From Prevotella sp. (GTDB lineage: Bacteria > Bacteroidota > Bacteroidia > Bacteroidales > Bacteroidaceae): 64,000 nucleotides of DNA. Location of the stretch: positions 62,001 to 126,000 of the forward strand of contig JAFUFJ010000016.1 of NCBI GenBank assembly GCA_017469955.1, given 5' to 3'. Positions within the stretch are counted from its first letter, which is position 1; every line of letters begins with the position of its first letter. Both the position numbers and the translations under genes were made by a program. Shown here one piece after another: positions 69-60,093 of the stretch. The notes beneath the pieces were generated by a model. That model saw only the letters and a list, made by a program, of their open reading frames with translations, ran no database searches and had not been told where the DNA came from.

Positions 69-178
69 GAGAAAGCTTAGGTTTCAGCCCGAGAAGTCTA
101 TGGGTTCTGGGTCAGAAAGCTATGAGTTATTAGGAAGAAAGCTAAGACTTCTCACCCTAAACTCTTAGCTTTCTCGGC
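69..178. repeat. 22-nt-pitch dyad array, family 1, copy A (5 units)
   Basis: Five consecutive 22-nt units start at 69, 91, 113, 135 and 157. Each has a 7-nt half-site, one A or T at the dyad centre, and the reverse complement of another 7-nt half-site, then a 7-nt spacer. The left words are GAAAGCT, GAAGTCT, GAAAGCT, GAAAGCT and AAACTCT. The right words, read on the minus strand, are GAAACCT, GAACCCA, TAACTCA, GAAGTCT and GAAAGCT. The array starts GAGAAAGCT and ends AGCTTTCTC, so its ends are inverted. It lies 144 bp downstream of the alanine dehydrogenase gene. The rest of 1-321 holds only two hairpins. Confidence 0.9.
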
Positions 179-3069: not shown

Positions 3070-3621
3070 ATGAAAGCAAAGTATCTGAAAATTTCAGCCA
3101 TTCTTTTGGCTGCAACGATGCTGTCTACCTCATGTGTAGGCTCGTTTAGTCTGTTCAACAAGCTGGCTTCATGGAACAAGACGGCTACAAAGAGCAAGTT
3201 CCTCAACGAGATTATCTTCCTTGTTATCTCACCTGCCTATGGCATTTGTGCCGTAGCTGACTATCTTGTTCTGAATACAATAGAGTTTTGGTCGGGCTCA
3301 AACCCGGTGACTGCCAATATCGGTAAGACCGTGAATGTGCTGGGTTCAGACGGTAACTACTATGCTGTGAAGACCTTGGAAGACGGTTATGAAATCACTC
3401 AACCCAATGGAGACATGCTGAGACTGGTCTACAATGCCACCGAAAACTCTTGGTCGAAACTGGAAGATGGCGTGATGACTGAGCTCTTCCGCTTCAACGA
3501 AGATGGCACGGTGAAGGCCACTTTGCCGACTGGAGAGCAGATGGACGTGGCCCTGAACGACTTCGGTGTAGCTCAGGTGAAGGATGCCATGAGCACGACT
3601 ACCTATTGGGCTATGCGCTAA
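3070..3621 (+). CDS. DUF3332-type lipoprotein
   Basis: A small exported protein of unknown function, 183 aa from the ATG at 3070. The N-terminus is a lipoprotein signal ending STSC at about residues 18-21. A hydrophobic stretch (IIFLVISPAYGICAVADYLVL, about 46-67) follows, containing the NKLASWNK and PAYGIC segments seen in DUF3332 proteins. The C-terminal part is polar and looks like repeated short beta strands (YAVKTLEDGYEITQPNGD). It stands alone between the pantothenate kinase and sugar kinase genes. No function is assigned. Confidence 0.72.
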   Translation: MKAKYLKISAILLAATMLSTSCVGSFSLFNKLASWNKTATKSKFLNEIIFLVISPAYGICAVADYLVLNTIEFWSGSNPVTANIGKTVNVLGSDGNYYAVKTLEDGYEITQPNGDMLRLVYNATENSWSKLEDGVMTELFRFNEDGTVKATLPTGEQMDVALNDFGVAQVKDAMSTTTYWAMR

Positions 3622-3882: not shown

Positions 3883-3992
3883 GAGAAAGGGCAGTCTTCT
3901 ACCTGAGAAAGCTATGGGTTCTTGCCAAGAAGCCATGGGCTTTAGCGGCTGAAGCCTTTGCCTTATGCGCGAGAAAGGATAGCTTTCTCGAC
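3883..3992. repeat. 22-nt-pitch dyad array, family 1, copy B (5 units, degenerate)
   Basis: Five units start at 3883, 3905, 3927, 3949 and 3971. The last unit is the standard GAAAGGA-T-AGCTTTC. Units 3 and 4 have drifted, with left words GAAGCCA and GAAGCCT, yet the 22-nt pitch is unbroken. The array sits in the 580-bp convergent gap between the DUF3332 gene and the sugar kinase gene. The rest of that gap holds two hairpins (3651-3687 and 4152-4192). In 3690-3880 and 3995-4150 I see no gene. GTTAAAAAACG near 3693 and again near 4087 is a short shared string of unknown meaning. Confidence 0.8.
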
Positions 3993-4201: not shown

Positions 4202-5095
4202 CTATGCTTTCAGACTTTCGGGCACAACGGGCATTGCTCCGTCCTGTGTACAGACGAAGGCAGACACGTCAACAGCCCGGCGATGGGCCTCCCTGACGGG
4301 CAGCCCGTTGAGGATGGCTGCACAGAAGGCTCCCGTGAACGAGTCGCCTGCACCTACAGTATCGGCTACTTGGACGGCCGGCGTGGGCAGGAACGACGAC
4401 TCTTCGGGGGTGAACACATGGCTTCCGTCGGTGCCGCAGGTGAGAATCAGCATCTTGAGGCCGTAGGCATTGACGAGGCTACGGCACTGCTCTTCGGCCG
4501 GAAGGCCTTCCAATGCCATCATCTTGCCTACGATAGCCAGCTCTTCATCGTTGATCTTCAGGATGTCGCAGCGTTGCAATGACGTCTCGATCACTTCCCG
4601 TGAATAGTAATGCTGGCGCAGGTTGATGTCGAAAATCTTCAGGCAGTCGGCCTGCGTGGCATCGAGAAATCGCCCGATAGTGGCCTGGGAAACGGCATTG
4701 CGCTGGGCCAAAGAGCCCCAGCACACGGCCAGTGCCTCATGGGCGATGGTCTCCATCTCAGGCGTAAAGGGAATGTTGTCCCACGCCACACCTTCTTTTA
4801 TATGATAGGACGGCACTCCCTGTTCGTCGAGAGTCACCTGCACCGTGCCCGTGGGATAGGGCACACGCGGCATGAGATGCTTCAGGTTGTGCTCGTCAAA
4901 GGCCCTGACGGTGTCGTCGCCCAGGGAGTCTTCTCCCAAAGCACTCACGGCAATGGCGGGAAAACCGAACTGGCTTGCGTGGTAGGCAAAGTTGGCTGGT
5001 GCACCGCCAAGCTGGCTTCCGTCGGGCAGCATGTCCCACAAGGCTTCGCCCAATCCTACGATGGGTCGCCCATGAAGTTTGTCTTGTTTCATCAT
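4202..5095 (-). CDS. PfkB-family carbohydrate kinase, fructokinase-like
   Basis: Predicted ATP-dependent sugar kinase of the ribokinase/PfkB family. The first motif, with ADP-type sugar contacts, is GEALWDMLPDGSQLGGAPANFA (about 16-37). The C-terminal signature DTVGAGDSFTGAF carries the catalytic aspartate. 'GGAPANFA' and the overall pattern fit fructokinases. It is 297 aa from the ATG at 5095; a frame reaching 5119 adds MYYLQLPD and is less likely. No sugar transporter or hydrolase lies next to it, so the substrate is an inference from family resemblance only. Confidence 0.85.
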   Translation of the reverse strand: MMKQDKLHGRPIVGLGEALWDMLPDGSQLGGAPANFAYHASQFGFPAIAVSALGEDSLGDDTVRAFDEHNLKHLMPRVPYPTGTVQVTLDEQGVPSYHIKEGVAWDNIPFTPEMETIAHEALAVCWGSLAQRNAVSQATIGRFLDATQADCLKIFDINLRQHYYSREVIETSLQRCDILKINDEELAIVGKMMALEGLPAEEQCRSLVNAYGLKMLILTCGTDGSHVFTPEESSFLPTPAVQVADTVGAGDSFTGAFCAAILNGLPVREAHRRAVDVSAFVCTQDGAMPVVPESLKA

Positions 5096-5311
5096 GTCTG
5101 GTAGTTGCAAATAATACAAAGGGTCTGTGCAAAGATACGTAAAATGCGCTGAAAGGCAATGTTTTAAAAGTACTTTTTTGAAGAAAAAATACGGTCTGCG
5201 GCATGTTTTCCATGATTTGTGCCGATGAGATTGTGCGGAAAATCAGAAGTGTGGTTGCACATTTTGTCGGCAAACGGGCGGATATTGCGAAAAAATCAGT
5301 AATTTTGCATC

Positions 5312-5526
5312 GTGCAATTGGTTCACTCGCATGCAGTGATTAAAAGGGAATTGGGTGAGAATCCCAGACTGTCCCGCAGCTGTGAGCGGTGTTTGATGCC
5401 GGCTAAGGACATGAGGATGCCCTGTGTTGCCGGCATGTCAATAGGACAAACAGGATGCCACTGACCAAGATACCGATGTCGGGAAGGCGTTTGTCTTGAG
5501 CCGTTTAGTCAGAAGACCTGCCGTTG
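5312..5526 (+). promoter_or_regulatory. cobalamin (B12) riboswitch
   Basis: The conserved parts appear in order: GGGAATTGGGTGAGAATCCC (5346-5365), CTGTCCCGCAGCTGTGA (5369-5385), TGCCACTG (5456-5463), GGGAAGGC (5480-5487), and the B12 box AGTCAGAAGACCTGCC (5507-5522). It ends about 65 bp before the btuB start. Adenosylcobalamin or a related corrinoid is expected to repress the downstream operon. A TAATTTTG -7 box lies at 5300-5307. The stretch 5096-5299 shows nothing else I can name. Confidence 0.95.
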
Positions 5527-5590
5527 CTGTCAGTTTTTCTCGGTCCTCGTGGATTGGGACCGGCAGAAAATAAATAGTAAGATTGAAGAC

Positions 5591-9937: not shown

Positions 9938-10025
9938 GAGAAACATCATCTTTTCTTCGGCAAAACATCATCTTTTCCTCGGCAATAGTTGATCTTTTAC
10001 GTTGCAAAACATGATCTTTTGCCAT
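9938..10025. repeat. 22-nt-pitch dyad array, family 2, copy G (4 units)
   Basis: Units start at 9938, 9960, 9982 and 10004. Each is an 8-nt half-site, the trinucleotide TCA or TGA, and the reverse complement of another 8-nt half-site, with a 3-nt spacer. Left words are GAGAAACA, GCAAAACA, GCAATAGT and GCAAAACA. The last right word, read on the minus strand, is GCAAAAGA. It lies in the convergent gap between btuF and pheS, between two terminators. Confidence 0.88.
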
Positions 10026-10047
10026 CACTCTTGCCGTCAGTCTCATG

Positions 10048-10105
10048 AAAAAAGCTTACCTTTCCGGACAGTAGACACGGTGTGTCCCGACAGGAAAGGT
10101 AAGCT
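10048..10105 (-). terminator. Rho-independent terminator of pheS
   Basis: On the minus strand, 13-bp arms (10093-10105 and 10053-10065) enclose a structured loop with an inner GGACA/TGTCC stem, and a run of six T's follows (10053-10048). Confidence 0.8.
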
Positions 10106-10181
10106 ATGGTTTGTTTGCAGACTGTCAATATGTGTCGCAAGGGTTGTCCTTCAGCCAGTGAAGGTGCGTGTGCGTCACCGT

Positions 10182-13382: not shown

Positions 13383-14147
13383 ATGAGACTTACATTTCTT
13401 GGAACCGGCACTTCTGTGGGAGTTCCGGCAATAGGCTGCCGGTGCAGGACCTGCCAAAGCACTGATCAGCACGACAAACGGCTGCGTTGCTCGGCACTTG
13501 TCGAGACGGCTTCGACGCGGATGGTCATCGATGTCGGTCCCGACTTTCGCCAGCAGATGATGCCCTTGCCGTTCAGGAAGCTCGACGCCGTGCTGCTGAC
13601 CCATATCCATTACGACCATGTAGGGGGCATTGACGACCTGAGACCCTTCTGCCAGTTCGGCGAGGTGAATGTCTATGCTGACGAACTGACGGCAGAGGGG
13701 CTGATGCATACCGTGCCTTATTGCTTTGCCGAAAACCGCTATCCCGGAGCACCGGCCATCAGGTTGCACCGCGTGAAGTGGCACGAAGTGCTGCGCGTCA
13801 ACGAGCTTGATGTGCTGCCTTTGCAAGTGTGGCACGGGAAACTTCCCGTCACTGCCTATCGCATCGGCGGTCTTCTTTACATTACGGACATGAGTATGAT
13901 CGACGAAACCGAGCTTGACTACTGCCGGAACGTCGACACATTGGTGGTGAATGCCTTGCGGTTCGGCCCTCCACACCATTCGCATCAGACGGTGGACGAT
14001 GCCGTAGCCTTCGCACGTGGCATAGGAGCCCGCCAGACATTCCTCATACACTGCTGCCACGATATCGGCCTGCACGCCGAGGTGAACGCCCAGTTGCCAG
14101 ACGACATCAGGCTGGCTTACGACGGGCAGCAGGTGGAAATAGGCTGA
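13383..14147 (+). CDS. metallo-beta-lactamase-fold hydrolase, PhnP-like
   Basis: Predicted zinc phosphodiesterase, 254 aa from the ATG at 13383. The first beta strand is LTFLGTGTSVGVPAIGC. A cysteine set (GCRCRTC and RLRC, about 15-36) resembles the structural zinc site of PhnP and related phosphodiesterases. The catalytic motif HIHYDH is near residues 72-77, and further metal ligands are H in VWHGKLPV, D in ITDMS and H near HHSHQT. Cyclic phosphate or lipoate-linked substrates are known for relatives, but the substrate here is not known. Alternative in-frame ATGs (13374 and upstream) overlap the murB end; 13383 fits the fold start. Confidence 0.83.
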   Translation: MRLTFLGTGTSVGVPAIGCRCRTCQSTDQHDKRLRCSALVETASTRMVIDVGPDFRQQMMPLPFRKLDAVLLTHIHYDHVGGIDDLRPFCQFGEVNVYADELTAEGLMHTVPYCFAENRYPGAPAIRLHRVKWHEVLRVNELDVLPLQVWHGKLPVTAYRIGGLLYITDMSMIDETELDYCRNVDTLVVNALRFGPPHHSHQTVDDAVAFARGIGARQTFLIHCCHDIGLHAEVNAQLPDDIRLAYDGQQVEIG

Positions 14148-14277: not shown

Positions 14278-14387
14278 GAGAAAGCTTAGATTTTAGGGTG
14301 AGAAGTCTTAGGTTTCATCATGAGAAGTCTATCCTTTCTCGTCCATAACCCATAGGGTTCTCGGGCTGAAAGGATAGCTTTCTCGCC
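14278..14387. repeat. 22-nt-pitch dyad array, family 1, copy C (5 units)
   Basis: Units start at 14278, 14300, 14322, 14344 and 14366. Left words are GAAAGCT, GAAGTCT, GAAGTCT, TAACCCA and GAAAGGA. Right words on the minus strand are AAAATCT, GAAACCT, GAAAGGA, GAACCCT and GAAAGCT. The ends are GAGAAAGCT and AGCTTTCTC in inverted orientation. It lies in the convergent gap between the PhnP-like gene and the 88-aa gene. Nothing else but the hairpin at 14437-14468 is seen in that gap. Confidence 0.92.
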
Positions 14388-22186: not shown

Positions 22187-22252
22187 GTGAAAGATGAACT
22201 ATTGCGCAGTAAAAGATGAACTGTTGCGTGGCAAAAGATGATCTTTTGCATC
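22187..22252. repeat. 22-nt-pitch dyad array, family 2, copy H (3 units)
   Basis: Units start at 22187, 22209 and 22231. Left words are GTGAAAGA, GTAAAAGA and GCAAAAGA, all followed by TGA. Right words on the minus strand are GCAATAGT, GCAACAGT and GCAAAAGA. The last unit is an almost perfect palindrome, GCAAAAGATGATCTTTTGC. GCAATAGT also occurs as a left word in copy G, 12 kb away. The array lies between two same-direction genes. Confidence 0.88.
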
Positions 22253-25669: not shown

Positions 25670-25757
25670 GATATATCTAAGGAATATGGTCCATACATCT
25701 AAGGTGTATGCTTCGTACATGGCAGATGTATGGAGTGTACACCTTAGATGTATGGGC
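25670..25757. repeat. 22-nt-pitch dyad array, family 4 (4 units)
   Basis: Units start at 25670, 25692, 25714 and 25736. Each is an 8-nt half-site, a central NNA trinucleotide, the reverse complement of another half-site, and a 3-nt spacer. Left words are GATATATC, CATACATC, CGTACATG and TGTACACC. Right words on the minus strand are CATATTCC, CATACACC, CATACATC and CATACATC. Positions 25691-25708 and 25738-25755 form a perfect 18-bp inverted repeat. The array lies in the convergent gap between queF and the TonB receptor gene. Confidence 0.85.
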
Positions 25758-29212: not shown

Positions 29213-31819
29213 CTACGGCTGCTGCTCGCGATGTCTTCTGTTTCTGAGCGAGAAACACGCTCCTCCAACCAGAGAAAGAATCAATATCGCGTAGGCAACA
29301 TAGGCTATTGTCTCGGTTGTCTTTACCGAGTCTGGCTTGAAAGTGAGTACAATCTCGTGCTTTCCTGCCGGCACTTTAAGGGCACGGAGCACATAGTTGA
29401 CGCGGCCAATCTCGGCCTTTTCGCCGTCGATTGTTGCCTTCCAACCTGGATAATAGATCTCGGAGAAGACCACGATGCCTCCGTCTGTGCTCTCGATCTG
29501 ATACTTCAGTTCGTTAGGTTCGTAGGCCGTGAGGGTGACTTGTCTCGTGGAGTCATTGTCAGAACCGGCAGCTTCGCCCAGCACTTCTGCGAACTTCCTG
29601 TCGGCAACTGCTTCGTGTCGCAGGTTTGAAAGGGCCAGTCCGTCGAGCTCTTCGTTGGCATTTTCCACGTAGTTCACTCGGTCAACAAACCACGCATTGC
29701 CCTGTGCATAGGGGTTGGTCAGCGGGAATAGTCCTCCGCCTTGCAGCGGGATGATGAAGTATTTGGTGTTGAGCATGTTCAGCACGGGGAAGATACTGTC
29801 GCCGTCAATCGTAGAGAAGTCGCCCTGCGAAGCGTTGATTGCCTTGGCGAGCTGCGACATTTCCGGCAGCAGACAGGCATCGATGAGCTCCTGATAGCGA
29901 CGAAGTTTGGCTGCATGATAGCCCCCAATAGACTTATGATAATAGGAAGTCTCGTTCTCATTGAACGTGTTTGTGGTGAGGTTCAGTACACGATAGTCGA
30001 GCGTAGAGTCCTTTAAGATCTCGCGGTCGGCTATGGTTGGCTGCTGAGGTTGCTCACGAACTGACTTCTTGACAAACATCGAGTCGTTCAGGTATCGTTT
30101 GTTGACCATCCACATTTCGCCCAGACAGAGCACCGCAATGGCCATGATGGCGACAGGCTTCTGCAGCTTTTTATACCTGACAGCCAGCATGATGACCGTG
30201 CCGATGGCGATGACTATGAACGAGCGCCAGCAGTCTGCTGTGAATACAGCCTTGCGTACTTCGCTGATGCTTTGCAGCACACTGGGCAGGTATTCCTGCG
30301 AAACATACTGGCTCAGCTGTATCTTGTCGGCCGTAGAGACAAACTGGTTGGAGTAGCATCCCGGCGCAAGTGCGAAGAGAAGGCATGCTCCGCCAGTCAG
30401 TGCGAAGGCTGTCCAGAAGGGCTTCCGGTATTTCTCAGGCTGGTCGAGCAGCTCCTTCAGGCCCATGACGCCCAGCAAGGGAATGGTGAACTCGGCGATG
30501 ACCAGTATGGAAGAGACTGTCCTGAACTTGGCATACATCGGCATGTAGTCGATGAACAGGTTGGTGAACGGCATGAAATTCTTTCCCCACGAGAGCAGAA
30601 TGGAAAGGATGGTGGCTGTGAGCAGTGCCCACTTCATGGGACCTCGCACGATGAACAGCGCCAGAACGGCCAGCATCAACACGAATGCTCCTACATAGAC
30701 GGGGCCTGCAGTGAAGGGCTGTTCGCCCCAGTATTGATACCATTGCCCGACAAACTGGCGCAGGTCGGGGTCGGCTTTCCCGAGTGCTTTCGTGTTGTCG
30801 GCAAGCTGAATATTGTGAGCTCCGCCCTTGGCGTTAGGTATCAGGAGCGTCCATGTCTCGCCGATGCCATACGACCATTGGGTGATATAGTCGCGGTCGA
30901 GCCCGCTTGAGGTCTGGTTTCCTGTGTCTTGTTTTACCAGTTCGCTCTTGCTTCTCATTGACTCCTTGGAGTATTGCCACGTATGGTAAAGGTTTGAAAT
31001 GTTGACGGCAATGCCTACCATGGCACCAGCCATGCAGATGACAGTGGCCTTTGCAAAGCGTGGAAGCAGTCGTCTTCTCACGGCTTCTACGGCATAGGCT
31101 ATGACCATCAGCACGATGACAAACAGGTAGTAGTAGGTCATCTGCACGTGGTTGGCGTTCACTTCGAATGCCGTAAACACCGCAGTAAGGATGAATCCCC
31201 ACAGGTAGCGCCCCTTGTAGGCCATCACGATGCCGGCAATGAGTGGCGGAAGATAGGCCAGTGCCCACACTTTCCAGATGTGTCCGGCTGCGATGATGAT
31301 GAAGAAATAGCTGGAGAAGGCCCATGCCACGGCGCCAAGCAGGGCGAGCAACATGTCTCGCCAGGGGCTTTGCCCGTCGGCTTTTGCCGGATGAGGGGGC
31401 GGATTGCCGGCCGTGGCAGGCATGCCTTTCGAGCGAGTGGTGCCGGCTTCAGGTGCTGTAAAGGACCGGATGAGGATGTAGAAGCCCAGCAGATAGACAA
31501 AGACATACCACACATTCTCGGGCAACCACAGGTGGTAGGCCTTCACGCCTGCCTGCAAAGCGTCGGTAGAGTCATAGGAAGGTGCCGTCTGATAGGTAGG
31601 CATCCCGCTGAACGTCGAGTTGGTCCACCGGGTTCTCTCGCCCGTTCGTTGCCGGTATTCCAGCTGTTCCTGTCCGGCTCCACGGCCTGCTGAGGCGTCG
31701 TGATGATAGAGAATACGTCCTTCCAGGTCGGCAGGAATGAAGTAGGCGAATGATATAATAGCGAATAAGGCCACTGCCACCACGTCGGGCAGCCATTTTC
31801 TGATGATGTTGCTTTTCAT
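29213..31819 (-). CDS. YfhO-family multi-pass membrane protein
   Basis: An 868-aa integral membrane protein with about 13 membrane segments in the first 630 residues and a soluble C-terminal domain (about 700-830, QVTLTAYEPNELKYQIESTDGGIVVFSEIYYPGWKATIDG), which is the YfhO signature. A last membrane segment is near the C-terminus. YfhO proteins are GT-C-like and are linked to glycosylation of teichoic acids in Gram-positives; the role in Bacteroidetes is not established. I chose the ATG at 31819 because the preceding 14 residues are not conserved-looking. It is divergent from the efflux operon. Confidence 0.88.
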   Translation of the reverse strand: MKSNIIRKWLPDVVAVALFAIISFAYFIPADLEGRILYHHDASAGRGAGQEQLEYRQRTGERTRWTNSTFSGMPTYQTAPSYDSTDALQAGVKAYHLWLPENVWYVFVYLLGFYILIRSFTAPEAGTTRSKGMPATAGNPPPHPAKADGQSPWRDMLLALLGAVAWAFSSYFFIIIAAGHIWKVWALAYLPPLIAGIVMAYKGRYLWGFILTAVFTAFEVNANHVQMTYYYLFVIVLMVIAYAVEAVRRRLLPRFAKATVICMAGAMVGIAVNISNLYHTWQYSKESMRSKSELVKQDTGNQTSSGLDRDYITQWSYGIGETWTLLIPNAKGGAHNIQLADNTKALGKADPDLRQFVGQWYQYWGEQPFTAGPVYVGAFVLMLAVLALFIVRGPMKWALLTATILSILLSWGKNFMPFTNLFIDYMPMYAKFRTVSSILVIAEFTIPLLGVMGLKELLDQPEKYRKPFWTAFALTGGACLLFALAPGCYSNQFVSTADKIQLSQYVSQEYLPSVLQSISEVRKAVFTADCWRSFIVIAIGTVIMLAVRYKKLQKPVAIMAIAVLCLGEMWMVNKRYLNDSMFVKKSVREQPQQPTIADREILKDSTLDYRVLNLTTNTFNENETSYYHKSIGGYHAAKLRRYQELIDACLLPEMSQLAKAINASQGDFSTIDGDSIFPVLNMLNTKYFIIPLQGGGLFPLTNPYAQGNAWFVDRVNYVENANEELDGLALSNLRHEAVADRKFAEVLGEAAGSDNDSTRQVTLTAYEPNELKYQIESTDGGIVVFSEIYYPGWKATIDGEKAEIGRVNYVLRALKVPAGKHEIVLTFKPDSVKTTETIAYVAYAILILSLVGGACFSLRNRRHREQQP

Positions 31820-31984
31820 TGTTTGCGTCTTTACGAAATTGCGTTTGTTATTGATATGCAAAGTTAATCATCTGTCGGCACATGGCAAAGAACGAGGGCT
31901 TTAGTTTATGTTTTTTTATGTTTTGCAGCCCGTTGCTTCCGGCATTTCTGTCGCTATTCAACGTGAGGGCCGTGGCTACTGTCT

Positions 31985-32116
31985 GAGAAAGCTATCCTTT
32001 CAGGTTGAGAAGTCTATGGGTTCTGGGCGAGAAAGCTAAGAGTTATTGGGATGAAAGCTAAGACTTCTGGGGCTGAAAGCTAAGACTTCTGGGGCTGAAA
32101 GGATAGCTTTCTCAGA
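31985..32116. repeat. 22-nt-pitch dyad array, family 1, copy D (6 units)
   Basis: Units start at 31985, 32007, 32029, 32051, 32073 and 32095. Left words are GAAAGCT, GAAGTCT, GAAAGCT, GAAAGCT, GAAAGCT and GAAAGGA. Right words on the minus strand are GAAAGGA, GAACCCA, TAACTCT, GAAGTCT, GAAGTCT and GAAAGCT. The first and last units with flanks form a perfect 25-bp inverted repeat (31979-32003 and 32095-32119). Units 4 and 5 are near-identical, a recent tandem duplication. It is in the 480-bp divergent gap between the YfhO and tolC-like genes. The rest of the gap holds only a TACCTTTG -7 box at 32266-32273. Confidence 0.94.
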
Positions 32117-32299
32117 CAGGTCGTGCAGCGCTTGCCGGGCGAAGGCTTTCCCTTCTTCTCGTCAAGGGGCAGAACTGCCCGCAGAATGCCGGCCGGTTTT
32201 CTTATTGAATGCTAACAGATATTAATTAATGTTATCTATAAATAGCCATTCCCAGATATTCTGTTTACCTTTGCATCCGCAAATTAGCAGAAAACAAAC

Positions 32300-33661
32300 A
32301 TGTATTTACGACAAGTGAGTGTGCTTGTCTTAGTCGCAGTGGGCGCACTGTCGGCGACAGCACAGGGCAGAGATGGGAGCGTCTCGCTGACCCAAAAATC
32401 ATTGACCGTAGCAGAATTATTTAGTCTTGTAGAATCAAACAGTAGTAGTCTTCAAGCAGCGAAGACGGGCGTACAATTTGCCGACCTCGGGGTCGCATCA
32501 GCCAAAACTGATCGACTGCCGGATGTTTCAACTTCTCTATCGGCCTCATTCAATGGCAATGTGCTCATCACCAACCGCGAGTTTGGCGATGTGCACGGCT
32601 ATCATGCGCCCCATTTTGGCAACTCTTTTGCGCTTGAAGCCCGTCAGACTGTCTACACAGGCGGAGCTCAAAGCGCAGCCGTCCGCATGGCAGAGATCGG
32701 CCGTGAGCAGGCCTTGGCTGGTGTCGACGAGGCACGAAGACAGGTGCGGTTCGTCGCCCTCGGCCAGTATCTCGACCTGCTCAAGCTGAGCAACGGCATG
32801 CAAGTCTATGAACACAACATCAGACTGACCGAGCGTCTCATCGACAACATTCGCGAAAAACACGCACAGGGCATGGTGCTGCTCAACGATGTGACACGCT
32901 ATGAGCTGCAGATGGAGACCCTTCGCCTCGGACTTCGCAAGCTTTCCGACCAGCGAAGCATCCTGAACCACCAGCTCTGTACGACCCTGAGACTGGCTGA
33001 GGGCACACAGATCGTGCCGGCAGACGACGTGACAGACGGTTTTCAGCAGGCTGTCCCTGCCGGAGAACCAGATGCGGCCTGTCCCGCAGATGCCAGCATG
33101 GACGCCGTGCCGGCAGAGCCTCCTTCGCTGCGTATGGCCCGACTCAACGTCGAACAGGCCCGCCAGCATGAGCGCATGGCTAAGAGCGAACGCCGGCCGA
33201 AAGTAGCCTTCTTTGCCATAGACCAGCTGGCCGGCCCGTTCACCTATGACATTCCACCCGTTGACAAGAACGTCAACTACTGGTGTGTGGGCATCGGGCT
33301 GACCTACAACCTCAGCGCATTGTTCAAAAACAGCAGCAAAATCAGGCAGGCACACACCGACACTCAACGGCAAAACCAGCTGGAAACCCTCGAGCAAGAA
33401 CGCTTCGGCAACGACATGCAGTCGGCCGAAACGCTTTACAAGCAGTCGTATGTAGAGTGGCAGACACAGCAGAAGAGCGTCGAACTGGCCACGCAGAACT
33501 ATCAGATAGTGAACGACCGCTACCTGAACCAGCTGGCACTTGTCACCGACATGGTCGACGCTTCTAACCTGAAACTCAATGCCGAGTTGCAGGAAGTGAA
33601 TGCCCGTATCGGCATCATCTATGCCTATTACCGAATCAAATACATCACAGGAACAATATGA
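32300..33661 (+). CDS. TolC-family outer-membrane efflux protein
   Basis: Outer-membrane channel of a tripartite efflux pump, 453 aa, with signal MYLRQVSVLVLVAVGALSATAQ. Two OEP repeats are visible. The first begins LTVAELFSLVESNSSSLQAAKTGVQFADLGVASAKTDRLPDVSTSLS, and the second begins PSLRMARLNVEQARQHERMAKSERRPKVAFFA. Long alpha-helical coiled-coil stretches make up the periplasmic barrel. It is first in an operon with an EmrA-like adaptor (4-bp overlap) and an MFS pump. Substrates are unknown, and no regulator gene is adjacent. Confidence 0.93.
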   Translation: MYLRQVSVLVLVAVGALSATAQGRDGSVSLTQKSLTVAELFSLVESNSSSLQAAKTGVQFADLGVASAKTDRLPDVSTSLSASFNGNVLITNREFGDVHGYHAPHFGNSFALEARQTVYTGGAQSAAVRMAEIGREQALAGVDEARRQVRFVALGQYLDLLKLSNGMQVYEHNIRLTERLIDNIREKHAQGMVLLNDVTRYELQMETLRLGLRKLSDQRSILNHQLCTTLRLAEGTQIVPADDVTDGFQQAVPAGEPDAACPADASMDAVPAEPPSLRMARLNVEQARQHERMAKSERRPKVAFFAIDQLAGPFTYDIPPVDKNVNYWCVGIGLTYNLSALFKNSSKIRQAHTDTQRQNQLETLEQERFGNDMQSAETLYKQSYVEWQTQQKSVELATQNYQIVNDRYLNQLALVTDMVDASNLKLNAELQEVNARIGIIYAYYRIKYITGTI

Positions 33662-43142: not shown

Positions 43143-44012
43143 ATGCAGATAGAGATTGACAGCAGCAGTGGATTCTGTTTCGGAGTGACCACTGCCATCA
43201 GAAAGGCAGAAGAGGAGCTTGCGTCGGGGCAAACGCTCTATTGTCTGGGTGATATTGTACACAATAGCATCGAGGTTGAGCGCCTGCATGCGAAGGGCCT
43301 CGTCACGATTAATCACGACCAGTTGCGAGAGTTGCGTGGCGTAAAGGTGCTGCTTCGGGCCCACGGAGAGCCCCCTGAAACCTATGAAATAGCCCGGAAC
43401 AACAACATAGAGATCATCGATGCCACCTGTCCTGTGGTGTTGCAGTTGCAACGCCGCATCAAGAAACAGTGGGAGAACGGTGGCGAAGGCTCAGTCGTTA
43501 TCTTCGGAAAGAACGGACATGCCGAGGTGCTTGGTCTTGTCGGACAGACCCAAGGCAAGGCTATTGTGATTGAAAACTTTGACGATGTGAAGTCGCTTGA
43601 CTTCGCCCATGACATCTATCTTTACTCGCAGACGACCAAGAACATCGACGAATACCATCGTCTCATCGACTATATCCAGCATCATATCTCCTCTGAAGCC
43701 ACGTTCAAGAGCTTCGACACCATATGCCGTCAGGTGGCAAGCCGTATGCCCAACATCGCCGCTTTTGCCCGCCGTCACGACCTGATATTGTTCGTCAGCG
43801 GGCGTAAGAGCTCCAACGGGCGCGTGCTTTTCCATGAGTGTCTGTCGGTCAATCCCAACAGTCACCAGATTGAACGTCCTGAAGAAATCAATCCAGAGTG
43901 GCTGAAAGACATCCAGACCGTAGGCATCTGCGGGGCTACAAGCACGCCGCTTTGGCTCATGGAGCAATGTCGCGACCATATAGAGGAGGCCCTTTCCCGA
44001 TCGTTAGCCTGA
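43143..44012 (+). CDS. ispH: 4-hydroxy-3-methylbut-2-enyl diphosphate reductase
   Basis: Last enzyme of the MEP isoprenoid pathway, a 4Fe-4S reductase giving IPP and DMAPP. It is 289 aa. The three cluster cysteines sit in GFCFGV (residue 13), IDATCPVV and VGICGATSTP. The AHG and GH(A) substrate histidines are in LLRAHGEPPETY and KNGHAEVLG. The gene is near cmk and porQ, as in Porphyromonas gingivalis, except that ispH here converges on cmk with two repeat arrays between them. Confidence 0.96.
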   Translation: MQIEIDSSSGFCFGVTTAIRKAEEELASGQTLYCLGDIVHNSIEVERLHAKGLVTINHDQLRELRGVKVLLRAHGEPPETYEIARNNNIEIIDATCPVVLQLQRRIKKQWENGGEGSVVIFGKNGHAEVLGLVGQTQGKAIVIENFDDVKSLDFAHDIYLYSQTTKNIDEYHRLIDYIQHHISSEATFKSFDTICRQVASRMPNIAAFARRHDLILFVSGRKSSNGRVLFHECLSVNPNSHQIERPEEINPEWLKDIQTVGICGATSTPLWLMEQCRDHIEEALSRSLA

Positions 44013-44020
44013 TAAACTTG

Positions 44021-44086
44021 CAGGATCTTGCATTCCTGTGTCTTGCAGAATGCATTCCGATGTTTTGCAGAATGCATTCCGATGTT
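44021..44086. repeat. 22-nt-pitch array, family 3 (3 units)
   Basis: Units start at 44021, 44043 and 44065. Units 2 and 3 are identical; each contains the palindrome GAATGCATTC. Unit 1 shares GCATTCC at the same register, with a different left half. The array starts 9 bp after the ispH stop codon and ends 3 bp before family 1 copy E, with a 3-nt change of phase. Confidence 0.82.
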
Positions 44087-44089
44087 CTT

Positions 44090-44199
44090 GAGAAAGCTTA
44101 GCTTTTAGGGTCAGAAAGGATAGAGTTATGGGCGAGAAAGCTATGGGTTATTGACAAGAAAGCTATGGCTTCTCGGGCTGAAACCTAAGCTTTCTTGCC
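44090..44199. repeat. 22-nt-pitch dyad array, family 1, copy E (5 units)
   Basis: Units start at 44090, 44112, 44134, 44156 and 44178. Left words are GAAAGCT, GAAAGGA, GAAAGCT, GAAAGCT and GAAACCT. Right words on the minus strand are AAAAGCT, TAACTCT, TAACCCA, GAAGCCA and GAAAGCT. It ends 31 bp before the cmk stop codon in the convergent ispH-cmk gap. Confidence 0.92.
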
Positions 44200-44229: not shown

Positions 44230-44922
44230 TTACGATTCGATGACTCTTCGGGCCTGTTCGAGGAGCCATTTGTTCTGCTCTTCGATGGTGAGTAGGCTGT
44301 TGTCAAGCAGTAAGGCGTCGTCGGCCTGCTTCAGAGGCGACACCTCTCTGTGTGAGTCTATATAGTCTCTCTCGATGACATTTCGCAGTATTTCGTCGTA
44401 GTCGGCAGGCATTCCTTTCTCTTGAAGCTCCTTGTAGCGGCGTTGAGCCCTTACCTCTGCCGAGGCTGTCACGAAGACTTTCAGCTCGGCATCGGGAAAG
44501 ACAACCGTGCCAATGTCGCGTCCGTCCATCACGATTCCGCCGTCTTCTCCCATTTTCTGCTGCTGTTCGACCAGTGCTTCGCGTACGAAAGCCAGCGTGG
44601 CAATGGGGCTTACATGGTTGCTCACCTCGAGGGTTCTGATGTCTTTCTCTATGAGTTCTCCGTTGAGGAAGGTGTCGGGGCGCCCTGTTTCCGGATTGAA
44701 TCTGAACGAGATGTGTATGTCGTCCATGGCATCTTCCAGCTCGCCGGTCTTGATGGAGCCGTCGGTTCCAAACAGATTGTGGCGCAGGGCATAGAGTGTT
44801 ACGGCACGATACATGGCCCCAGTGTCTACGTAAACATACCCTAATTGCTTAGCCAGGTCTTTGGCCATCGTACTCTTTCCGCACGACGAATGGCCGTCAA
44901 TGGCAATGGTTATCTTCTTCAT
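44230..44922 (-). CDS. cmk: cytidylate kinase
   Basis: Phosphorylates CMP and dCMP with ATP. It is 230 aa. The P-loop is [17 protein letters not shown] (about 8-24), followed by [20 protein letters not shown]. The [34 protein letters not shown] block (about 148-181) is diagnostic. It is upstream of nothing on its strand within 200 bp. The divergent-to-porQ arrangement is not seen; porQ and cmk are on the same strand, porQ first, 54 bp apart. Confidence 0.96.
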
Positions 44923-47786: not shown

Positions 47787-48590
47787 ATGTTGATTGACAC
47801 CCATACCCATCTCGACGGAGAAGAGTTCAGAGACGACCTTGAAGAGGTGGTCGGCCGTGCCCGGGAGGCTGGCGTTGGACGGATGTTTCTGCCGGCCATC
47901 GACCTCGCGTCGTCTGAAAAAGTGCTGCAGTTGAGCCGTCTTCATCGGGGTGTGCTCTATCCCATGCTGGGCCTGCATCCCGAGGAAGTGAAGAGCGACT
48001 GGCGTGAAACGCTGGCGTCCATCCGTCGGTTGCTGCTCGACAACCTTGACGATGTCATTGCAATAGGCGAGGTTGGTCTCGACTATTACTGGTCTCGCGA
48101 CTTCGAAAGCGAGCAGCTTGAGGCTTTCGAGGAGCAGGTGAGATGGTCGGTTGAGACCCGTCTGCCCCTGATGATACACTGCAGGAAGGCTCAGAACGAG
48201 ATGGTGCGTCTGCTGAGAAAGTATGAAAGCGACCTGCCGGGAGGCGTGTTCCACTGCTTCACGGGCAACCGTTTCGAGGCAGAAGAGCTGCTCTCCTTCG
48301 AGCGTTTCATGCTGGGCATCGGCGGTGTGCTTACGTTTAAGAGCAGCCATCTGCCTGAAGTGCTGCCTGCCACGGTGCCCCTTTCGCGCATCGTGCTTGA
48401 GACCGACAGCCCTTATATGGCCCCGGTGCCCCACAGAGGGAAGCGCAACGAGAGCGCGTTTGTGGCCTGTGTAGCCTGGCGTCTGGCCGAAAGCTACGGC
48501 ATTGGTGTCGAGGAAGTTGCGCTTCAGACGACCCGAAACGCGTGCCGACTGTTCGGCCTTCAGGAGGCGGATGCTTCCGTTTCAAGTTGA
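47787..48590 (+). CDS. TatD-family metal-dependent hydrolase
   Basis: Putative deoxyribonuclease of the TatD family, 267 aa. The TIM-barrel metal ligands are visible: DTHTHLD (about 3-9), the glutamate in IGEVGLDYY, MIHCRKAQ, FHCFTGN, and the aspartate in LETDSPYMAPVPHRGKRNES. The stop codon at 48588-48590 overlaps the first base pair of the family 1 array copy F. The physiological substrate is unknown; 3'-5' DNA exonuclease activity is reported for relatives. Confidence 0.92.
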   Translation: MLIDTHTHLDGEEFRDDLEEVVGRAREAGVGRMFLPAIDLASSEKVLQLSRLHRGVLYPMLGLHPEEVKSDWRETLASIRRLLLDNLDDVIAIGEVGLDYYWSRDFESEQLEAFEEQVRWSVETRLPLMIHCRKAQNEMVRLLRKYESDLPGGVFHCFTGNRFEAEELLSFERFMLGIGGVLTFKSSHLPEVLPATVPLSRIVLETDSPYMAPVPHRGKRNESAFVACVAWRLAESYGIGVEEVALQTTRNACRLFGLQEADASVSS

Positions 48591-48698
48591 GAAAGCTTAG
48601 GTTTCAAGGTCAGAAAGGATAGGTTTCTGGGTGAGAAAGGATAGCTTTCTCGTGCATAACCCTAAGACTTCTCGGGCTGAAGTCTTAGCTTTCTCGGC
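48589..48698. repeat. 22-nt-pitch dyad array, family 1, copy F (5 units)
   Basis: Units start at 48589, 48611, 48633, 48655 and 48677. Left words are GAAAGCT, GAAAGGA, GAAAGGA, TAACCCT and GAAGTCT. Right words on the minus strand are GAAACCT, GAAACCT, GAAAGCT, GAAGTCT and GAAAGCT. It starts inside the tatD stop codon. It lies in the convergent gap to the dihydrofolate reductase gene, with a terminator hairpin further on. Confidence 0.93.
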
Positions 48699-48823: not shown

Positions 48824-49348
48824 TCAGGCTTGCGTGTCGGCTGGTTCGTCAACCGTTTCCGGTCCGCTCTTCCTCACGTAGTCGGCAAAGGCATAGCGCT
48901 GTCGGTGCTTTTCGTCGGGCTCATGCTGCTCGATGTGCTCCAGTTGCCAGTCGTCGTAGGACGGGAAGAAGGTGTCGGCCTCGTCGGGAGTGTCGTCGAT
49001 CTCGGTCAGACAGAGGCGGTCGGCCAGCGGGAGAGCTTGCCTATAGACGCTGGCTCCGCCTATGATATACACCTCTTCGTCCGTTTCGCAGTGGGCGAGG
49101 GCTGCTTCCAGCGTCGGGAAACACTCACATCTGGGCAGCTCTTTTGTCGTCCGGCTGAGCACGATGTTGCGCCGGTTGGGCAGTGCTCCCTTAGGCAACG
49201 ACTCGAAAGTGCGCCGTCCCATGATGATGGTATGGCCCGTTGTCAGCTGCTTAAAGCGCTTCAAGTCGTTGGGCAACCAGTAGAGAAGTCGGTTTTGAAA
49301 GCCAATGGCGCGGTTCTTTGCCACGGCAGCTATGATGCTGATCGTCAT
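48824..49348 (-). CDS. folA: dihydrofolate reductase
   Basis: Reduces dihydrofolate to tetrahydrofolate with NADPH. It is 174 aa. IIAAVAKNRAIGFQNRLLYWLPNDLKRFKQLTTGH (about 4-38) holds the substrate aspartate in the WLPNDLKRFK block. TIIMGRRTFESLP, NIVLSR and EVYIIGGASVYRQALPLADRLCLTEID complete the set. It is directly downstream of thyA (48 bp). The two enzymes are coupled: ThyA produces dihydrofolate and FolA regenerates tetrahydrofolate. Confidence 0.96.
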   Translation of the reverse strand: MTISIIAAVAKNRAIGFQNRLLYWLPNDLKRFKQLTTGHTIIMGRRTFESLPKGALPNRRNIVLSRTTKELPRCECFPTLEAALAHCETDEEVYIIGGASVYRQALPLADRLCLTEIDDTPDEADTFFPSYDDWQLEHIEQHEPDEKHRQRYAFADYVRKSGPETVDEPADTQA

Positions 49349-60027: not shown

Positions 60028-60093
60028 GTAAAAGATGATGTATTGGCAAGCAAAAGATGATGTTTTGCCCACCAATACATCATCTTTTGCACC
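60028..60093. repeat. 22-nt-pitch dyad array, family 2, copy I (3 units)
   Basis: Units start at 60028, 60050 and 60072. Left words are GTAAAAGA, GCAAAAGA and CCAATACA. Right words on the minus strand are CCAATACA, GCAAAACA and GCAAAAGA. The first and last units carry CCAATACA in opposite orientation, so the array is itself an inverted repeat. It lies in the divergent gap between GH97 and the lipoprotein gene. Confidence 0.9.

Follow-up and report, generated by a model that had tools for sequence, protein, structure and literature searches.

Intergenic regions of the Prevotella genome studied here carry arrays of imperfect dyads on an exact 22-nt pitch, which fall into three families of unrelated sequence and one common geometry. 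The arrays lie at the boundaries of transcription units, one to a gap; arrays of different families exclude each other, and arrays on this pitch occur in many Prevotella. The observation from which the analysis started, six arrays in a stretch of 64,000 nucleotides (the window; contig JAFUFJ010000016.1, positions 62,001 to 126,000), is real and larger than first described.

Arrays in the window

By direct reading, six arrays were found at the coordinates given by the first-pass annotation, with 5, 5, 5, 6, 5 and 5 units, 31 altogether, in exact 22-nt register. The unit plan described there, namely a word, A or T, the reverse complement of a word and a 7-nt spacer, was confirmed, as was the perfect 25-bp inverted repeat at the ends of the fourth array (array D), formed by 31979-32003 with 32095-32119 (direct reading). 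Units 1 and 3 of the array at 3883-3992 are weak, with PWM scores of 10.9 and 11.8 versus 18.9-26.5 in the remaining 29 units. Under a stricter unit scan this array has 4 units, and the array at 31985 gains two weak units. The window was also found to hold four arrays, absent from the earlier annotation, that share this geometry but use different words; three belong to family II and one to family III. The features are listed below.

69-178, plus strand: family I array, 5 units; the 3' end of the alanine dehydrogenase gene (322-1428, minus) is 143 bp away
3883-3992, no strand: family I array, 5 units (two weak); convergent gap between DUF3332 (3070-3621, plus) and PfkB-family (4202-5095, minus) genes
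9940-10020, no strand: family II array (AAWASAT-S-ATSTWTT plus GC-rich 7-nt spacer), 4 clear units
14278-14387, minus strand: family I array, 5 units; convergent gap past an MBL-fold gene (13521-14147, plus)
22189-22247, no strand: family II array, 3 units
25672-25752, no strand: family III array (TACATCT-A-AGGTGTA plus TGGTCCA-like spacer), 4 units
31979-32003, plus strand: left arm of the perfect 25-bp inverted repeat of array D
31985-32116, no strand: family I array D, 6 units; divergent gap between YfhO-like (29213-31861, minus) and outer-membrane efflux (32300-33661, plus) genes
32095-32119, minus strand: right arm of the perfect 25-bp inverted repeat of array D
44090-44199, plus strand: family I array, 5 units; convergent gap between ispH (43143-44012, plus) and cmk (44230-44922, minus)
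48589-48698, plus strand: family I array, 5 units; convergent gap between tatD (47787-48590, plus) and DHFR (48824-49348, minus) genes
60030-60088, no strand: family II array, 3 units

Genes were called here and below with a simple hexamer-based caller, not taken from a curated annotation. The intergenic siting claimed for the arrays was borne out in the larger set described below, in which 131 of 133 arrays overlap called genes by 10 bp or less. An Rfam scan of the window at gathering thresholds gave a cobalamin riboswitch (RF00174) at 5302-5539, upstream of an ORF starting near 5549, as the sole match; the arrays match no model. At 44046-44089, two units CAGAATGCATTCCGATGTTNTN with other words abut the array at 44090-44199 in identical 22-nt phase. 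An inverted repeat, AAGCTTACCTTTCC...GGAAAGGTAAGCT, is located at 10045-10115, close downstream of the family II array at 9940-10020.

Three families built on one geometry

The source genome comprises 2.26 Mb in 22 contigs and is 75.6% complete; 804 kb of it, the window included, was scanned for arrays. Genome-wide, the two-unit pattern GAAN4WN4TTM-N7-GAAN4WN4TTM gave 332 forward and 352 reverse matches, whereas the same pattern read backwards gave 3 and 0. By a de novo lag scan of the first 464 kb, 77 segments were found at lag 22 as against 0-18 at the other lags between 19 and 43, and 25 segments at lag 44 (2 × 22). Chance origin of the arrays is excluded by this reversed-pattern control and the lag-22 excess.

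In the same lag-22 scan, families II and III were found beside family I, with unrelated words. All three are built 7+1+7+7, from a half-word, one nucleotide, the reverse-complemented half-word and a spacer. The unit is GAAxxC-TWA-GyyTTC in family I, with a TpA step in 358 of 407 centres, AAWASAT-S-ATSTWTT with a GC-rich spacer in family II, and TACATCT-A-AGGTGTA with a TGGTCCA-like spacer in family III. GAA..TTC, the unit by which a genome search had been proposed, represents just one vocabulary of three or more in this genome, so that geometry and not this unit defines the class.

A total of 133 arrays was identified in 804 kb, approximately one per 6 kb, after arrays left with fewer than three units by trimming were dropped. 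Family I accounts for 80 arrays, 69 of them with exactly five units, a count that the unit scan itself favours by preferring intact register. Families II and III contribute 23 arrays (17 with three units) and 30 arrays (23 with three units), respectively.

Half-words are mostly drawn from a small recurring set. Among the 69 oriented arrays of family I, whose mean pairwise identity is 0.70, AA and TT are near-invariant (entropy 0.02-0.11 bit at offsets 4, 5, 15 and 16) and the inner half-word letters are variable (0.88-1.14 bit at offsets 6, 7, 9-11, 13 and 14), the kind of conservation to be expected in operator half-sites. Arrays of family I are polar and use both orientations, 44 of the 69 being flipped relative to the alignment. 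Their ends are symmetrical: GAAAGC stands at half-site 1 in 35 of 37 five-unit arrays and at half-site 10 in 34 of 37, and no array seen shows this family-wide symmetry more strongly than array D with its 25-bp inverted repeat. Border half-sites, ...TTC on the left and GAA... on the right, were found at 23/80 and 20/80 arrays of family I, 15/23 and 12/23 of family II, and 14/30 and 15/30 of family III, the expectation with equal letters being about 1 in 64. As judged by eye, the loci L036:17907, L037:1419 and L037:15674 share a left flank, with the array inverted in one of them. Two seven-unit arrays of family I (L031 14865-15018 and L032 6515-6668), also compared by eye, have similar flanks and seem to differ in part by swaps of whole words (for example GCTTTC to GACTTC).

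Position relative to genes and promoters

Arrays are located closer to the 3' ends of genes (medians 84-123 bp) than to the 5' ends (179-244 bp). Among gaps of at least 100 bp, 36 of 55 convergent, 30 of 66 divergent and 56 of 152 tandem gaps are occupied (convergent versus the others, 86/218, P=0.0008), as counted for the 124 of 133 arrays inside gaps with each stretch gene-called singly. Raw gap length is not independent evidence in relation to occupancy, because an array lengthens its own gap. The -7 promoter motif of Bacteroidetes is TAnnTTTG. Within 250 bp of 129 of the 133 arrays, those far enough from a stretch end, this motif was found outward 93 times, approximately the intergenic average, inward 12 times and inside arrays twice; the arrays keep out of leaders.

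In tandem gaps, no link was observed between array polarity and the direction of transcription (9/8/7/7). This independence, together with the presence of arrays in 30 divergent gaps, argues against a function as sense-strand RNA. A reading of the arrays as T-run terminators was rejected, since terminator-like runs of at least five T facing outward were detected within 100 bp at just 53 of 266 array edges.

Mutual exclusion between arrays

Spacing in this genome was analysed for the 129 of 133 arrays within called gaps. With the families pooled, 127 gaps carry one array and one gap carries two, whereas 19.3 ± 3.0 (uniform) or 23.5 ± 3.0 (length-weighted) double gaps are expected under independent placement. 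The distance between neighbours has a mean of 5.65 kb and a CV of 0.51-0.52, versus 0.84-0.87 in three gap-sampling nulls and 0.75 ± 0.05 under a null matched for gap orientation and array-free gap length (0/3000). Neighbours closer than 3 kb make up 12.9%, as against 28.1 ± 3.0% in the class-matched null (0/3000).

Marked exclusion was also observed between families. The median distance from arrays of families II and III (n=50) to the nearest family I array is 5708 bp versus 3781 ± 540 expected (P=0.0013), and 16% of them lie within 3 kb of a family I array, as against 41% expected (0/3000). Since even families without a word in common keep apart in this way, recombination between homologous copies does not explain the exclusion. 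For single families, even spacing is borderline in family II (P=0.056) and absent in family III (CV 0.88 versus 0.89, P=0.50). How the families follow one another along the chromosome is uninformative (same-family neighbours 43/113 versus 48.4 ± 4.5). In a second species, represented by genome G132, neighbours closer than 3 kb make up 10.2% versus 26.9 ± 4.8% (0/3000), and two double gaps were found where 7.1 ± 2.0 or 9.2 ± 2.1 are expected; its overall spacing CV is not below the null (0.82 versus 0.84, P=0.47).

Distribution in Prevotella and other Bacteroidales

G132 carries four further families, with 62 arrays in 420 kb, a count that leaves out one coding segment and the 11 of 73 intergenic lag-22 segments that fit no word family. 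Across the genus, 20-kb stretches of 19 Prevotella, chosen blind to arrays (380 kb), contain 26 lag-22 segments, all intergenic and counted by periodicity, versus 0-9 segments at any other lag between 17 and 32. This set had 20 stretches before removal of L155 (G450), which is of another genus and has no lag-22 segment. Nineteen stretches from other genera of Bacteroidales (336 kb, four stretches shorter than 20 kb) gave a single lag-22 segment.

Neighbourhoods of XerD in the best 80 of 472 contigs gave 41 lag-22 segments, 39 of them intergenic, in 29 contigs. Five of the 12 named species in these best 80 contigs, P. aurantiaca, P. histicola, P. veroralis, P. vespertina and P. brunnea, have a lag-22 segment at XerD, and the remaining seven have none there at the threshold used. 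Many segments, mostly coding, were also found at lags 15, 18 and 21, and 14-29 intergenic segments at lags 16, 20, 21 and 28. Because several other lags are thus rich in segments, dyad symmetry was scored: strongly dyadic are 14 of 39 intergenic segments at lag 22, as against 1/23, 3/17, 2/29, 0/4, 0/7 and 0/14 at lags 16, 20, 21, 23, 24 and 28. At XerD of P. denticola and P. multiformis, which lack lag-22 segments there, intergenic runs of a 10-nt repeat (GTGATAAGCG-like; L179 8034-9511 and 20777-20863, L180 8195-8283) surface at lag 20.

In two genomes, G140 and G097, the units on the 22-nt pitch are perfect or near-perfect palindromes. Arrays of three different vocabularies were seen by eye downstream of one orthologous gene in P. 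veroralis, P. histicola and P. vespertina; beyond the array the next gene is not the same at this locus, and the case of one orthologous boundary holding different vocabularies in three species is suggestive only. Breakpoints in gene order between P. veroralis and P. vespertina coincide with arrays of one family (L181 4332 and 15462; L183 5607) and look as if the arrays recombine. Among 398 genus genomes from a larger group, the nearest relatives of the source genome are 78-79% identical in IspH.

Comparison with known repeat systems

The statement that the arrays are not CRISPR, REP/BIME or an IS is supported by the features tested. CRISPR was rejected, as the units, dyads whose words vary, are separated by 7-nt spacers taken from recurring words, and are not identical repeats with unique spacers. 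REP/BIME elements are extragenic, present in hundreds of copies and mosaic in make-up, with inverted units alternating in orientation. The Prevotella arrays resemble them in these respects, and are also commoner at gene 3' ends and in convergent gaps. REP sequences are described as 20-40-bp palindromes with a GTAG/CGTC-type tag (PMC3733652), whereas the arrays consist of 15-nt dyads on a 22-nt pitch with other words, and one geometry is common to unrelated sequences. With no tag-type palindrome, and no match to a RAYT (Y1) transposase in the source genome at its 75.6% completeness, REP/BIME was also rejected.

The BrickBuilt MITE of Porphyromonas gingivalis is described with a 23-nt unit, 19 copies of 1 to 22.8 units, some indels, leader and tail segments, and IS5-like 12-nt terminal repeats (PMC4596501). 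By that description, BrickBuilt resembles the arrays as a Bacteroidales element with inverted ends that lies between genes and contains short tandem repeats (PMC4596501). The Prevotella arrays differ in the 22-nt unit, in their number (133 in 804 kb), in the family-typical number of units and in their ends. As no common leader or tail was seen in the 30-nt flanks of the arrays, and pitch and ends differ, identity with BrickBuilt was ruled out. MITEs in general fit poorly, as no consistent target-site duplication of 2-9 nt was found; as to terminal inverted repeats, the ends of family I mirror each other and families II and III share only the TTC..GAA border half-sites.

The claim that the arrays belong to no known class holds in that no described match was found for the class as a whole, and needs amendment in that PINSR of P. 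intermedia is probably a member. Among the titles and opening lines of abstracts listed in searches of open-access literature, no account of 22-nt dyad arrays in Prevotella was found. PINSR is reported as a 188-bp intergenic non-coding repeat of 177-184 copies per genome, with about three-quarters of the sites common to two strains; it is missing from most strain-specific elements, occurs downstream of tnaA, is clade-specific (PCR-negative in other clades) and lacks terminal inverted repeats (PMC4755523). The section that describes it treats it as a single repeat and makes no mention of a 22-nt unit, dyads, multiple families or spacing (PMC4755523). A repeat of genome G084, whose XerD is 94% identical to that of P. 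aurantiaca, has matches spanning 182-188 of 188 bp at all 40 candidates scored (290 first-look candidates), and all 20 copies retrieved are intergenic and in 22-nt register. One copy is located approximately 230 bp downstream of a tryptophanase-family gene; this neighbour is weak evidence because three of the other four loci found in that search have copies too. The G084 repeat was compared with PINSR by features, namely the 188-bp length, intergenic siting and a copy near a tryptophanase-family gene. We infer that the two are probably the same, and PINSR is then probably one already published family, or dialect, of the 22-nt array class.

Folding, mobility and decay as alternatives

As single strands, the arrays fold strongly, with mean z of -5.7, -4.2 and -4.1 for families I, II and III versus -1.2 in control gaps (both strands; 30 of 80 family I arrays, 23 of family II and 30 of family III), and 51-72% of the predicted pairs are in end-to-end register. 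Minimum-energy folds so far below the shuffled ones in every family speak for foldback elements, in which a transcript or an extruded cruciform would form a long imperfect rod hairpin and foldability, not sequence, would be kept, for ending transcription, protecting 3' ends or absorbing torsion. The enrichment in convergent gaps fits this role, as do a slight gain in folding of the native word order of family I over permuted orders (z -0.83 ± 0.21, 45 of 69 arrays) and the end-to-end matching of its words (19 identical inner end pairs versus 11.7 expected, P=0.016; complementarity in excess at two single pairs, spacers 1 and 4 and half-sites 2 and 9). However, no such gain by word order was found in family II (16 arrays) or III (23 arrays), and arrays are present in 30 divergent gaps. 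As whole rods, own halves pair no better than foreign halves (z -1.3, -1.9 and -1.1), and all three families have less complementarity than expected at the central dyad, the point from which a hairpin or cruciform would grow. The two half-words of a dyad are identical more rarely than expected in families I (9/345 versus 27.1), II (2/51 versus 7.5) and III (3/69 versus 9.2), and in family I after orientation also as three-letter words (23/345 versus 35.7 ± 3.2). We read this pattern as double-stranded half-sites under selection against perfect palindromes, an avoidance that is not universal in view of the palindromic units of G140 and G097. RNA covariation was rejected, as column covariation in 34 oriented arrays is found mainly between neighbouring letters of a word and not across a stem. 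The foldback explanation is altogether rather improbable.

Unlikely, if still to be taken seriously, is an origin of the arrays as non-autonomous mobile elements of several families with related recombinases, in which target immunity would keep new copies off old ones and copies would persist between transcription units, where insertion harms least. Target immunity occurs in Tn7, Mu and Tn3. The positional exclusion, the symmetrical ends of family I, the many dispersed copies in both orientations and the family-typical unit numbers of 5, 3 and 3 agree with mobility. In contrast, no consistent target-site duplication was found for 2-9 nt over 36 × 36 edge offsets (10,368 cells per family), the best cell being a 3-mer at unequal offsets in family I with 11/80 versus 2.4 expected, and families II and III being lower. 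The Y1 family (PF01797), to which the transposase search was devoted, gave 0 matches in the source genome, 75.6% complete, whereas 5 of 14 control genomes were positive. Immunity across families would require one machinery acting on unrelated ends. Furthermore, transposases and a primase of G132 lie in a 39-kb stretch free of arrays (L269 4886 to L271 4076; IS66-type and DDE transposases and a CHC2/Toprim primase, Pfam matches in 4 of 10 proteins tested), which is likely a mobile island. Repeats between genes are common in bacteria and the function of the arrays is a predicted one, so the arrays might instead be functionless, decaying relics of tandem repeats with a spacing that merely mirrors operon layout. 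This is very improbable: family I arrays are just 0.70 identical and yet 69 of 80 hold exactly five units in register, AA and TT of the half-words are near-invariant, and mutual exclusion exceeds the three gap-sampling nulls and the class-matched null.

Proposed role and significance

The reading that we tentatively prefer, at somewhat less than an even chance, is that the arrays are platforms for dimeric DNA-binding proteins that punctuate transcription-unit boundaries. Each array would act as double-stranded DNA, on which 3-5 protein dimers might bind side by side along one helix face, with one imperfect 15-bp dyad per dimer and two turns per 22-bp pitch. The helical repeat in vivo is near 11 bp, so that 22 bp make two turns. 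We infer for each sequence family its own DNA-binding protein, and these putative readers are probably paralogues of one structural type, which would account for a fixed geometry with differing words. As a rule, at most one array would stand at a transcription-unit boundary, outside leaders and genes, as interchangeable punctuation, and the nucleoprotein block might insulate neighbouring units, either torsionally or against read-through. This protein-platform reading is supported by the one 7+1+7+7 geometry in three unrelated families and by the 22-nt pitch with other words elsewhere in Prevotella, as well as by the operator-like letters of the family I half-words, the avoidance of genes and leaders, the mutual exclusion within this genome, across its families and in G132, and the independence of polarity from transcription. 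Counting against it are the strong single-strand foldability, which is superfluous to reading by protein, the end-to-end word matching of family I, and the spacing of family III alone, of family II alone (borderline) and of G132 by its CV; in addition, transcription-unit boundaries are where one would also find a repeat that persists only at sites where it does no harm.

A bolder proposal, which we hold to be possible and on balance doubtful, is a geometry-coded punctuation of the chromosome. Unrelated vocabularies would be interchangeable since it is the 22-bp dyad pitch that is read, with at most one mark per boundary and one per approximately 5.7 kb, and lineages would rewrite the words together with their own readers. 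If so, the arrays would be evenly spaced domain or transcription insulators, unlike the bacterial repeats known to us. The class is defined by geometry and by mutual exclusion across unrelated sequences.

Extragenic repeats are usually defined by sequence, whereas these arrays conserve geometry, position and mutual exclusion but not sequence. The pattern holds inside a single genome and between members of a genus of major gut and oral commensals. Should the arrays prove to be boundary marks, they would open to direct test the ways in which Bacteroidota keep transcription units apart or organise supercoiled domains, and would represent hundreds of natural insulators with a readable code.
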